DNA of 64,000 bases from assembly GCF_041080675.1 (NCBI RefSeq), contig NZ_CP163520.1, forward strand, positions 4,340,001-4,404,000, written 5' to 3'. Both the position numbers and the translations under genes were made by a program. The notes under the pieces are model-generated. The model was given only the letters and a program-made list of their open reading frames with translations. It searched no databases and was not told the origin of the DNA. Origin of the DNA: Streptomyces sp. cg36. Lineage in GTDB: Bacteria; Actinomycetota; Actinomycetes; Streptomycetales; Streptomycetaceae. The number at the start of each line of letters is the position of its first letter. Within the stretch, counting starts at the first letter, position 1. Shown piece after piece: positions 22,088 through 57,840 of this stretch.

Positions 22088-22143
22088 GGGAGACCTGTCC
22101 CTTCACCGGCAGGAACGTGCCGGACGATCCGAGTAGAGGGAGA

Positions 22144-22159
22144 AGTGGTGTAGTCCACC
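22144..22159 (-). promoter_or_regulatory. dre-like operator (DasR site) upstream of msiK
   Basis: AGTGGTGTAGTCCACC fits the DasR consensus A(G/T)TGGTCTAGACCA(G/C)T at about 13 of 16 positions, with near-perfect dyad symmetry (GTGG/CCAC arms). It lies 57 bases before the msiK start. Confidence 0.65.
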
Positions 22160-22295: not shown

Positions 22296-22372
22296 GCCGC
22301 CTTAGCTCAGTTGGCTAGAGCGCTTGACTTGTAATCTTGAGGTCGTCGGTTCGATTCCGACAGGCGGCTCCA
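22296..22372 (+). tRNA. tRNA-Thr (anticodon TGT)
   Basis: A cloverleaf with a 7-bp acceptor stem (GCCGCCT with AGGCGGC), D arm GCTC/GAGC, anticodon loop CTTGTAA giving TGT, 5-base variable loop, T arm GTCGG-TTCGATT-CCGAC, discriminator T and an encoded CCA (22370-22372). It should read ACA (and ACG by wobble). The anticodon stem is odd: the 5' strand CTTGA faces TCTTG, so the two middle positions are U-U mismatches where TCAAG would be complementary. Confidence 0.93.
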
Positions 22373-52389: not shown

Positions 52390-53376
52390 CTACGCCGCCC
52401 GGTGCACCGCGTACTCGTCGATCTCGCGCATCGGGGGCCGTTCCTCGGTGTCCACCGCGTACGTGCGCGGCACGAAGCCGTCCTCGCCGCGTTCGAACTG
52501 GGTCAGCGAGGGGCGGACCAAGTGGGCGCGGGAGAGCCGCAGTTGGGCCGTGCGGTAGATCGCCGCGGCCATCCGGCCGAGCGCCTGCCCGTCCTGGTGG
52601 CGGTGTTTGCGCACGCCCACGTCCACCTGGGCCAGCGCGTCCAGGCCCACCGTGTGCAGCGCGTCCACCAGCAGCCCCAGCTCCACTCCGTAACCGACGG
52701 GGAAGGGGAGCCGCTCCAGCAGCGTGCGGCGGGCCGCGTACTCGCCGCCGAGCGGCTGCACGAAGCCGGCCAGCTGCGGCCAGTGCAGATTGAGCAGCGG
52801 CCGGGCCACGAGTTCGGTGACCCGCCCGCCCTGACCGGGGGAGTCGCCGAACGGCCGGTCGTACATCGCCTTGACGAAGTCCACGTCCGGATCGGTCAGC
52901 AGCGGGCCGACGATCCCCGAGACGAAGCCGGGGTCGAAGTCCTTCAGGTCCGCGTCGATGAAGCAGACGACGTCACCCGTGGTGACCAGCAGCGACCGCC
53001 ACAGCACCTCGCCCTTGCCGGGCAGCGCGGGCAGCCGGGGCAGGATCGCGTCCCGGTGCACCACCCGGGCACCGGCCTTCTCGGCGACCTCGGCGGTGCG
53101 GTCGGTGGAGCCGGAGTCGACCACCACCAGCTCGTCCACCAGCGGCACGGCGTCGCTCATCAGCGCGCGCCGGATCGCGGCCACGATGTCACCGACCGTG
53201 GCCTCCTCGTCGAGCGCGGGCAGGACCACGCTGACCGTGGTGGCGGTACGGCGCTTGGCGGCCATGACCGCGTCCAGCGGACGGTCGGCGGCCGACCAGG
53301 AACGCCTGCTCAGCCAGCGCTCCACCTCTTCCAACACGGGCCCGGGCCTCCTCGTAGCGGTCCTGATGTGATCCAT
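52390..53376 (-). CDS. gpgS: glucosyl-3-phosphoglycerate synthase
   Basis: A 328-residue GT-A glycosyltransferase (GT81) joining glucose to 3-phosphoglycerate, the first step to glucosylglycerate, a compatible solute. VSVVLPALDEEATVGDIVAA binds the nucleotide sugar, the metal motif is CFIDADLKDFDP, and PFPVGYGVELGLLVDAL with VRKHRHQDGQALGRMA are family blocks. Next to otsA it forms an osmo/nitrogen-stress solute pair. ATG 53376; the divergent thrC leader begins 130 bases away. Confidence 0.88.
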   Translation of the reverse strand: MDHIRTATRRPGPVLEEVERWLSRRSWSAADRPLDAVMAAKRRTATTVSVVLPALDEEATVGDIVAAIRRALMSDAVPLVDELVVVDSGSTDRTAEVAEKAGARVVHRDAILPRLPALPGKGEVLWRSLLVTTGDVVCFIDADLKDFDPGFVSGIVGPLLTDPDVDFVKAMYDRPFGDSPGQGGRVTELVARPLLNLHWPQLAGFVQPLGGEYAARRTLLERLPFPVGYGVELGLLVDALHTVGLDALAQVDVGVRKHRHQDGQALGRMAAAIYRTAQLRLSRAHLVRPSLTQFERGEDGFVPRTYAVDTEERPPMREIDEYAVHRAA

Positions 53377-53505
53377 CTCGCGGTTCGGACGACTATCTCA
53401 ACCGTCCGCGCCTTCGGTTACAGTCTTGAACAACGCGGATGGCCGTCGCATGTCGGGGGTCGTCGCGCGAACAAACGCCTGGGTCCCGGACCCAGTGCCA
53501 CAGCG

Positions 53506-53629
53506 CTCATCCAGAGGGACTGAGGGAACGGCCCGTTGAAGTCCCGGCAACCCTCCTGCCGACCGCGAGGTATCGGTGGGGAAGGTGCCAATTCCGTCTC
53601 ATGGCGAAATGCGCCATGGGGAAGATGAG
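53506..53629 (+). ncRNA. SAM-I (S-box) riboswitch upstream of thrC
   Basis: All hallmarks of the S-box aptamer are visible. P1 arms are CTCATC (53506-53511) and GATGAG (53624-53629). P2 begins with the kink-turn bases CCAGAG..CTGAGGGA. GGCCCGTTGAAGTCCCGGCA and ACC form the conserved core and pseudoknot. GGTGCCAATTCC is the J/P3 core and CATGGCG/CGCCATG is P4. It ends 19 bases before the thrC ATG and its P1 3' strand abuts the ribosome site GGAG (53629-53632), so control of translation is likely. No U-run terminator follows. Confidence 0.93.
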
Positions 53630-53648
53630 GAGAAAGGGCCTCGCCATC

Positions 53649-54935
53649 ATGGCTGTGCACACCGTCAGCAACGCCACCACCACCGTGAATCTCGGTCCCG
53701 CCGTCGCGCTTTCCTGCCGGGAATGCGGCGAGCGGTTCGACCTCGGCCCGATCTTCGCCTGCGCCCTGTGTTTCGGCCCGCTCGAAGTCGCGTACGACCT
53801 TCCCACGGGTGACCCCGAGGCGCTCCGCAAGCGCATCGAAGCGGGCCCGGAGAACATCTGGCGCTATGCGCCCCTGCTGCCCGTTCCGGCCAATGTGGCT
53901 GAAAAGCCCAACCTGAATCCCGGATTCACCAAGCTCGTCAAGGCCGACAACCTCGCCCGCGAGCTGGGTGTCACCGGCGGCCTGTACGTGAAGGACGACT
54001 CCGGCAACCCGACGCACTCCTTCAAGGACCGCGTCGTCGCGATCGCCGTCGAGGCCGCCCGCGCCTTCGGCTTCACCACGCTCTCCTGCTCCTCCACCGG
54101 CAACCTCGCGGGCGCCGTCGGCGCCGCCGCCGCCCGCGCCGGCTTCCGCTCCTGCGTGTTCATCCCGCACGACCTGGAGCAGGGCAAGGTCGTCATGGCC
54201 GCGGTCTACGGCGGCGAGCTGGTCGGCATCGAGGGCAACTACGACGACGTCAACCGCTTCTGCTCGGAGCTCATCGGCGACCCGCTCGGCGAGGGCTGGG
54301 GCTTCGTCAACGTCAATCTGCGCCCGTACTACGGCGAGGGCTCCAAGACCCTGGCGTACGAGATCTGCGAGCAGCTCGGCTGGCGGCTGCCCGACCAGAT
54401 CGTCATCCCGATCGCCTCGGGCTCGCAGCTCACCAAGATCGACAAGGGTCTCCAGGAGCTCGTCAAGCTGGGTCTGGTCGAGGACAAGCCGTACAAGATC
54501 TTCGGCGCCCAGGCCGAGGGCTGCTCGCCGGTCTCCACCGCCTTCAAGGCCGGGCACGACGTGGTCCGCCCGCAGAAGCCGAACACCATCGCCAAGTCGC
54601 TGGCGATCGGGAACCCGGCGGACGGCCCGTACGTCCTGGACATCGCGCGGCGCACCGGCGGCGCGGTCGAGGACGTCGACGACGAGCAGGTCGTCGACGC
54701 GATCAAGCTGCTGGCCCGGACCGAGGGCATCTTCGCCGAGACGGCGGGCGGCGTGACCGTCGGCGTCACCCGGAAGCTCATCGAGAACGGCCTGCTCGAC
54801 CCGGCCCTGACCACCGTCGTCCTCAACACGGGCGACGGCCTCAAGACCCTCGACGCGGTGGCGCCGACCACTGGACCGACCGCGACCATCCGCCCGAGCC
54901 TGGACGCGTTCCGCGACGCCGGCCTGGCCGGCTGA
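53649..54935 (+). CDS. thrC: threonine synthase (PLP-dependent)
   Basis: A 428-residue fold-type II PLP enzyme forming threonine from O-phosphohomoserine. An N-terminal zinc-ribbon-like pair CxxC (C23/C26 and C38/C41) precedes the catalytic part; the PLP lysine is K126 in NPTHSFKDRVV; phosphate-binding and PLP loops are SSTGNLAGAVGAAAARAG and VIPIASGSQLTKI. ATG 53649 (MAVHTVSN) is chosen; the in-frame codons before it are riboswitch. It is followed after 33 bases by a CysO-like gene. SAM control of this branch-point enzyme is uncommon. Confidence 0.94.
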   Translation: MAVHTVSNATTTVNLGPAVALSCRECGERFDLGPIFACALCFGPLEVAYDLPTGDPEALRKRIEAGPENIWRYAPLLPVPANVAEKPNLNPGFTKLVKADNLARELGVTGGLYVKDDSGNPTHSFKDRVVAIAVEAARAFGFTTLSCSSTGNLAGAVGAAAARAGFRSCVFIPHDLEQGKVVMAAVYGGELVGIEGNYDDVNRFCSELIGDPLGEGWGFVNVNLRPYYGEGSKTLAYEICEQLGWRLPDQIVIPIASGSQLTKIDKGLQELVKLGLVEDKPYKIFGAQAEGCSPVSTAFKAGHDVVRPQKPNTIAKSLAIGNPADGPYVLDIARRTGGAVEDVDDEQVVDAIKLLARTEGIFAETAGGVTVGVTRKLIENGLLDPALTTVVLNTGDGLKTLDAVAPTTGPTATIRPSLDAFRDAGLAG

Positions 54936-54968
54936 CCCACCGCTCCGGAAGCACGGAAGGCAGAAGAC

Positions 54969-55244
54969 ATGAGCGTCAACGTCCGCATCCCCACCATCCT
55001 CCGTACGTACACCGGCGGCGCCGCCGAGGTCGCGGCCGAGGGGGCCACCCTCGCCGAGGTCATCGCCGACCTGGAGAAGAACCACACCGGCATCGCCGCC
55101 CGGGTCCTGGACGACCAGGGCAAGCTGCGCCGCTTCGTCAACGTGTACGTGAACGACGACGACGTCCGCTTCGAGCAGGGCCTGCAGACGGCCACGCCGG
55201 ACGGCGCCGGGGTCTCGATCATCCCGGCCGTCGCCGGCGGCTGA
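54969..55244 (+). CDS. MoaD/ThiS-family sulfur carrier, CysO-like
   Basis: A 91-residue ubiquitin-fold carrier ending in the di-glycine VAGG that is thiocarboxylated. The sequence VNVRIPTILRTYTGG, FVNVYVNDDDVRF and IIPAVAGG is very close to mycobacterial CysO, the sulfur donor for cysteine synthesis by CysM. No cysM or mec gene is adjacent. It lies 33 bases after thrC, inside the same riboswitch-controlled unit, giving that unit a sulfur-metabolism link. A role in molybdopterin or thiamin synthesis is less likely. Confidence 0.9.
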   Translation: MSVNVRIPTILRTYTGGAAEVAAEGATLAEVIADLEKNHTGIAARVLDDQGKLRRFVNVYVNDDDVRFEQGLQTATPDGAGVSIIPAVAGG

Positions 55245-55285
55245 TCCGACGCGCCCCAAGGGCCCCGGAAGATACGCTGCGTTAC

Positions 55286-55328
55286 CTGAATTGCCCCCTC
55301 CGCAAGCTAAGCGGAGGGGGCAATTCAG
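55286..55328 (+). terminator. strong intrinsic terminator after thrC-cysO
   Basis: 18-base perfect stem (55286-55303 with 55311-55328), loop AAGCTAA. Confidence 0.9.
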
Positions 55329-55679
55329 TGTGGTTGAGCGCGGTACAGTGGGGAAGTCCCCTTCGTTGTGCGTGCCGCATGCATATGAGAACGCGACGAA
55401 CCGGCGTCGAGAAGCAGTCAAAGTGTTCGAGCATATTGCGCCTTAAGTGCGCTTTGCCCGGCCCGACTTGCCCCGGAATGCTGAATTTCGCGGCATTCCG
55501 CTCTTCCCCCCTGCCCTGAATTCTCGTCCGATTGACCTGTTGCAGAGGGCAGTTGGGCAGATACATTCAGCCGCGGTCGACGCGTTCCGGCGCACACCCT
55601 CTCCTGTCGGAGGGTGGAGGTCTGACCCGGGTCCGCGAAGTGCGGCTCCGTGCAAGGGCCAGTAATAGGGGAGTTAGGC
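55329..55679 (+). promoter_or_regulatory. upstream region and leader of the cold shock gene
   Basis: 350 bases without a gene. A hairpin with arms CGGAATGC/GCATTCCG lies at 55474-55500. A candidate promoter is TTGCAG (55540-55545) and TACATT (55562-55567), 16 bases apart, which would give a 5' leader of about 105 bases before the cold shock ATG, as is common for csp genes. Confidence 0.55.
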
Positions 55680-56029: not shown

Positions 56030-56092
56030 CTTGCACTCTCCTGGGTCGAGTGCTAATCATTGGGCTTAGCACTCTCCGAGTGAGAGTGACAG
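56030..56092 (+). promoter_or_regulatory. two CIRCE (HrcA) elements upstream of groEL2
   Basis: Consensus TTAGCACTC-N9-GAGTGCTAA. Copy 1 (56030-56056) has a degenerate left arm (CTTGCACTC) and a perfect right arm GAGTGCTAA. Copy 2 (56066-56092) has a perfect left arm TTAGCACTC and a degenerate right arm (GAGTGACAG). Both have the exact 9-base spacing. HrcA repression of groEL2 is expected. Confidence 0.85.

Positions 56093-56112: not shown

Positions 56113-57840
<1,728 letters not shown>

Follow-up and report, generated by a model that had tools for sequence, protein, structure and literature searches.

The window, the whole 64-kb stretch of Streptomyces sp. cg36 DNA analysed here, carries a genuine SAM-I riboswitch, well conserved and of the kind already reported for the metM-metO operon. 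By analogy, the two genes behind it are the counterpart of metM-metO of Streptomyces albulus. This operon is probably under ordinary feedback by SAM, being switched off at the step of ribosome binding. A SAM riboswitch at metM-metO is thus known already; the identity of the genes is corrected here, and the comparison of leaders adds modestly to what was known.

The first-pass annotation had read a complete S-box aptamer directly before threonine synthase and had suggested a scan with RF00162. The scan of the 64-kb window finds this aptamer at 53504-53631 on the + strand, matched over the entire model (1-108 of 108) with 81.4 bits (E = 1.3e-17) against a cut-off of 44.4 bits. It is the sole RF00162 match over the cut-off within the window, and no further match is reported from the 9.0 Mb genome. 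In the model alignment, stem P1 is formed by CUCAUC (53506-53511) and GAUGAG (53624-53629), both on the + strand and found as CTCATC and GATGAGGA in all 70 leaders of the family set described below; the two outermost pairs of the model are non-standard at this aptamer. The aptamer is located upstream of metM on the same strand, where metM counts as a methionine gene by its homology to MetM. From this match, the aptamer is expected to bind SAM.

The ORF at 53649-54935 (+ strand, 428 aa) starts with ATG at 53649 and matches the PLP-enzyme family. Family models, a tree, and the literature together point to metM, a ThrC-like PLP enzyme and probable homocysteine synthase. Judged by family models alone it would be named ThrC, since the protein passes TIGR00260, the thrC equivalog, with 268 bits against a cut-off of 167.1; a score over this cut-off is thus no proof in itself of a ThrC identity. 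Threonine synthase (thrC) was also the first-pass assignment, which does not stand. A complete hom-thrC-thrB operon is found elsewhere in the genome (C1:2.61 Mb, hom and thrB recognised by eye), and its ThrC is 36% identical to the window MetM over the matched part. In a tree of 62 rows (30 MetM-type proteins, 31 ThrC-type proteins of which two are identical, and one outlier), the MetM-type and ThrC-type groups are separate with support of 99/98 and 98/96, where each label is that of the search that found the protein, both sets are best-scoring matches, and the hom-operon context is confirmed, among the ThrC-type proteins, for the ThrC of this genome only. The window protein does not cluster with the ThrC-type proteins, and it was rejected as a canonical ThrC. 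A separate ThrC match (1e-60) exists in 44 of the 46 metM genomes covered by both searches, being absent in G255 and G294. Among the matches listed, the best 80 named records are from Streptomyces (78) and Streptantibioticus (2) and are 87-93% identical to MetM.

We take SCO4293-SCO4294 of Streptomyces coelicolor, from gene order, to be the same pair as that in the window. These genes are grouped with sulfate-assimilation genes in the available text of PMC2267785. ArgR binding and an ARG box are described at the start of SCO4293 in the available parts of PMC3293853 and PMC5839063, and therefore a second regulator may act near 53649. According to the available text of PMC12172450, Hasebe et al. 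(2024) identified the homocysteine synthase MetM in Streptomyces, which converts O-phosphohomoserine to homocysteine; the same text notes that metM of S. albulus is preceded by a SAM riboswitch, describes a putative sulfur-carrier gene as similar to the metO of that species, and states that a cyanobacterial homologue seemed not to act fully as MetM. The enzyme activity of the window MetM would by analogy follow the S. albulus work. S. albulus metM-metO, as described in that text, shares with the window the ThrC-like enzyme, the sulfur-carrier gene, the upstream SAM riboswitch, and the genus, whereas the window genome also carries a metY-metX-like pair. In Streptomyces lividans, RF00162 likewise stands before a two-gene unit, SLIV_16930-SLIV_16925, and differs in its label, having been filed under threonine biosynthesis in 2021 (PMC8079986, available text). 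It is reported there that 21 of the 22 S. lividans elements are highly transcribed.

The label in PMC8079986 would suit a second threonine synthase repressed by SAM, balancing the methionine and threonine branches. The TIGR00260 cut-off is passed, and the nearest solved structures to the window MetM are threonine synthases, as such a role would have it. The complete hom-thrC-thrB operon elsewhere, the separate protein group of MetM, the sulfur-carrier homologue that adjoins metM in nearly every locus, and the MetM activity reported for S. albulus (PMC12172450, available text) all argue against this role, making it very improbable. The correction matters because a riboswitch present in 197 of 199 genomes of the genus most likely serves a methionine enzyme and not the threonine pathway.

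The second gene, metO, is located at 54969-55244 on the same (+) strand, 33 bases behind metM. From family models, it encodes a ThiS-family sulfur-carrier protein of 91 aa with a C-terminal GG (the product ends AVAGG). Its best NCBIfam match is SAMP1, with a score of 58 against a cut-off of 60. The window thus has both a ThrC-like enzyme distinct from the ThrC of its genome and an adjacent ThiS-family protein ending in GG. A metO homologue adjoins metM in 28 of 29 loci, and in 17 of 18 outside the genus; at L058, a metM locus with SAM-I, none is found within 1500 bases on each side. In S. albulus, thiocarboxylated MetO is reportedly the sulfur donor for MetM, in the 2024 work of Hasebe and co-workers. 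The first-pass annotation had called the second gene CysO-like, which is right as to a co-directional sulfur carrier and wrong as to context. We take CysO to be defined by the cluster mec-cysO-cysM, while metO is flanked by metM and a gene that looks cold-shock-like by eye; CysO was rejected as its identity. In CysO-CysM of Mycobacterium, a sulfur-carrier protein feeds a fold-type II PLP enzyme that makes cysteine from phosphoserine. The carrier and the type of enzyme are alike in the two systems; the product (cysteine) and the gene neighbours differ. A perfect inverted repeat of 17 pairs, read from the sequence at 55287-55327 (no strand assigned) after metO, may be the end of the transcript; it is missing from the list of the terminator scan, which requires a T tract.

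SAM-I is found in 197 of 199 genomes of the genus and in 199 of 200 genomes of the family, a sample that overlaps that of the genus. Thirty of the 197 genus loci were read, and metM adjoins the aptamer in all 30. A metO match is seen in 28 of these; the exceptions are L021 and L023, both short stretches. At 1e-100, metM is matched in 137 of 396 genomes of the phylum, 12 of them in the genus with one copy each. Outside the genus, the upstream regions of 58 of 125 metM loci, chosen mostly by score order, were covered (1500 bases for 18 loci and about 400 for 40). SAM-I is found upstream in 41 of the 58, and neither SAM-I nor T-box is found over the cut-off in the upstream regions of 16. In one of the 58 (L127), a T-box (31-329, 102.9 bits) exists in place of SAM-I before metM, and it aligns with AUG (Met) at the presumed specifier. 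This site is taken as the specifier from T-box anatomy; an AUG specifier would fit methionine.

In the window leader, a probable Shine-Dalgarno stretch, AGAAAGG, is located at 53631-53637 (+ strand), 11 bases before the ATG. It gives the best pairing with the 3' end of 16S rRNA. The stretch begins two bases past the last P1 base, on the final base of the aptamer model, and so abuts the six P1 pairs while lying outside them; the first-pass statement that the P1 3' strand GATGAG abuts the ribosome site is confirmed. An alternative hairpin (53627-53642, + strand) can be formed by GAGG (53627-53630) and CCUC (53639-53642). It excludes P1, holds the Shine-Dalgarno stretch in its 8-base loop, and may optionally be extended by outer GAUG/CAUC pairs. 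No terminator-like hairpin is found on the + strand in 53370-55400, which includes the interval between aptamer and metM, and transcription termination was rejected for this leader; one terminator-like match occurs in this region on the - strand, within the shuffled expectation. In Bacillus, S-box (SAM-I) leaders act by transcription termination; the aptamer fold is common to both, and no terminator is found in the window leader. Plain folding of 53504-53690 forms P1 with z = -0.92 only, so the folding energy alone is not evidence. Since the predicted accessibility of the Shine-Dalgarno stretch changes by only -0.02 with P1, the folding of this leader alone is silent on the direction of control. 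No description of the expression platform of the metM leader was found in the literature searched, as far as its available texts go, most subscription papers being outside that search.

Leaders from Streptomycetaceae were compared as a set of 70, made of the 30 genus loci and 40 additional ones, 31 of which are from other genera; the pattern NTGGC served to place the start codons. P1 does not vary within the set, and because of this a count of covariation is uninformative. CCUC, the partner of GAGG, is present in 70/70 leaders as compared with 11% in shuffled spacers, and CAUC stands right before the start codon in 33/70. The first-pass annotation had drawn the alternative hairpin with its outer arm (53624-53630 with 53639-53648) and had proposed comparing both helices among leaders. 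The hairpin can be drawn as described and both P1 and the GAGG/CCUC core are kept throughout the family, whereas the outer CAUC is kept in fewer than half of the leaders. The P1 3' strand begins 21-27 bases ahead of the start codon. Relative to the last P1 base, the Shine-Dalgarno stretch starts at +2 in 46 leaders, 0 in 20, +4 in two, and -1 in one (69 of the 70). Note that these figures represent conservation, not 70 events, because the leaders are related. By folding prediction, the mean accessibility of the Shine-Dalgarno stretch in the 70 leaders is 0.65 with P1 forced and 0.79 with P1 blocked; it is lower with P1 in 56 leaders, higher in 13, and tied in one. This predicted shift would lend weak support to OFF control across the family.

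With the same hairpin in view, the first-pass annotation had left two options, that SAM blocks translation or, unusually, that it turns the gene on, as it does for plant threonine synthase. In the second, GAUGAGG/CCU..CAUC would hide the ribosome site without SAM and P1 would free it. Universal CCUC whose pairing with GAGG excludes P1, an AGAAAGG outside the P1 pairs, and the 13 leaders with higher accessibility in the P1 state are what it would predict. Against it, that hairpin would carry the Shine-Dalgarno stretch in its loop, accessibility falls with P1 in 56 of the 70 leaders, many relatives have OFF architectures, and SAM would induce the pathway of its own precursor. SAM as an activator is thus very unlikely. 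Somewhat more room, though still well short of an even chance, is left for a hairpin at the start codon. With P1 formed, GGCC (53637-53640) would pair with GGCU (53651-53654) around the ATG; without SAM, the P1 3' strand would hold CCUC, so that control would be OFF and not exerted by P1 alone. GGCC is present in 67/70 leaders and the start codon is followed by GCN in 70/70, although the search pattern NTGGC itself demanded the GC. The pairing is short, however, an alanine in second position has other explanations, and the mean accessibility of the start codon is about equal in the two P1 states (0.47 and 0.48).

OFF control agrees with leaders outside the genus. By script, terminator-like hairpins exist in 15 of the 41 non-genus SAM-I metM leaders, two of which (L065 and L115) have hairpins that are doubtful. 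An antiterminator requires the P1 3' strand to be complementary to a terminator arm, and among 13 hairpins tested this is clear in 7 (equalled by no more than 4 of 300 shuffles), four of these seven being near-identical relatives. In the remaining six, three are equalled by 15-24 of 300 shuffles and three are no better than chance. Twelve other leaders without a terminator call were picked for a start close behind P1 (the start of L119 is unsure); the Shine-Dalgarno stretch starts at or before the last base of the model in 10 and 1-3 bases past it in two. By the same yardstick, that of the window leader begins on the last base. Fourteen of the 41 have neither the terminator nor the Shine-Dalgarno design by the criteria used. 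Both designs are OFF designs. The available text of PMC1262725 states that the base stems of riboswitches in Actinobacteria overlap the translation start directly; no conserved RNA structure had been seen before methionine operons in the genomes of 2005, according to the same text. It may tentatively be imagined, as a guess that is rather less than even, that, within Actinomycetota, a single SAM-I aptamer standing before one and the same operon has switched its output between termination and translation block, with a T-box replacement in L127. The CCUC of Streptomycetaceae would then be a surviving antiterminator arm, pairing with the P1 3' strand and leaving the Shine-Dalgarno stretch looped out at low SAM. 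These phylum-wide leaders are in any case a set for studying one aptamer coupled to different outputs.

Since no terminator is found in the leader and the Shine-Dalgarno stretch begins at +2 from the end of P1, control is probably translational and OFF. The OFF designs of relatives, the report on Actinobacteria (PMC1262725), and the logic of the pathway make OFF at translation the best reading. Against it stand the position of the Shine-Dalgarno stretch outside the P1 pairs, the small predicted change in its accessibility, the 14 distant leaders with neither design, and the 16 distant metM genes with neither SAM-I nor T-box upstream. From the identity of metM-metO, SAM most likely represses the synthesis of its own precursor. 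In the proposed scheme, MetM would draw O-phosphohomoserine off the threonine branch and, using sulfur from thiocarboxylated MetO, produce homocysteine, from which methionine and then SAM are made. At high levels, SAM would bind the aptamer and stabilise P1. The 3' strand of P1 stops just short of the Shine-Dalgarno stretch, so that ribosome binding would be hindered and the operon off. When SAM is scarce, P1 would open and its 3' strand could pair with CCUC, so that the Shine-Dalgarno stretch would be exposed in a loop. This would provide a simple feedback handle on the supply of methionine, and hence of SAM for methylation, in these antibiotic makers.

MetM is perhaps not the sole route to homocysteine, since metY- and metX-like genes exist side by side at C1:50281-52697 (L008 and L013), close to an end of the chromosomal contig. 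This pair is a possible second route. The metX-like gene scores 445 bits where the curated cut-off is 500, a value that all 14 control genomes also fell short of. No Rfam match over the cut-off is found at L003, L004, L007, L008, and L013, which cover metY-metX, another PF01053 gene, thrC, and a third ThrC-like gene. The last encodes a distant ThrC-like protein (C1:2921321-2922358, L004:1333-2550) with paired cysteines near its start.

Other features are seen within the window. The divergent neighbour at 52390-53376 matches glucosyl-3-phosphoglycerate synthase (PRK13915, 440 against 262 bits). The Rfam scan also finds an msiK RNA at 22091-22149 on the - strand and a tRNA at 22296-22369 on the + strand. 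Two neighbouring repeats with imperfect arms (TTAGCACTC/GAGTGCTAA) at 56030-56092, before a groEL-like ORF recognised by eye (56218-57840), resemble CIRCE.
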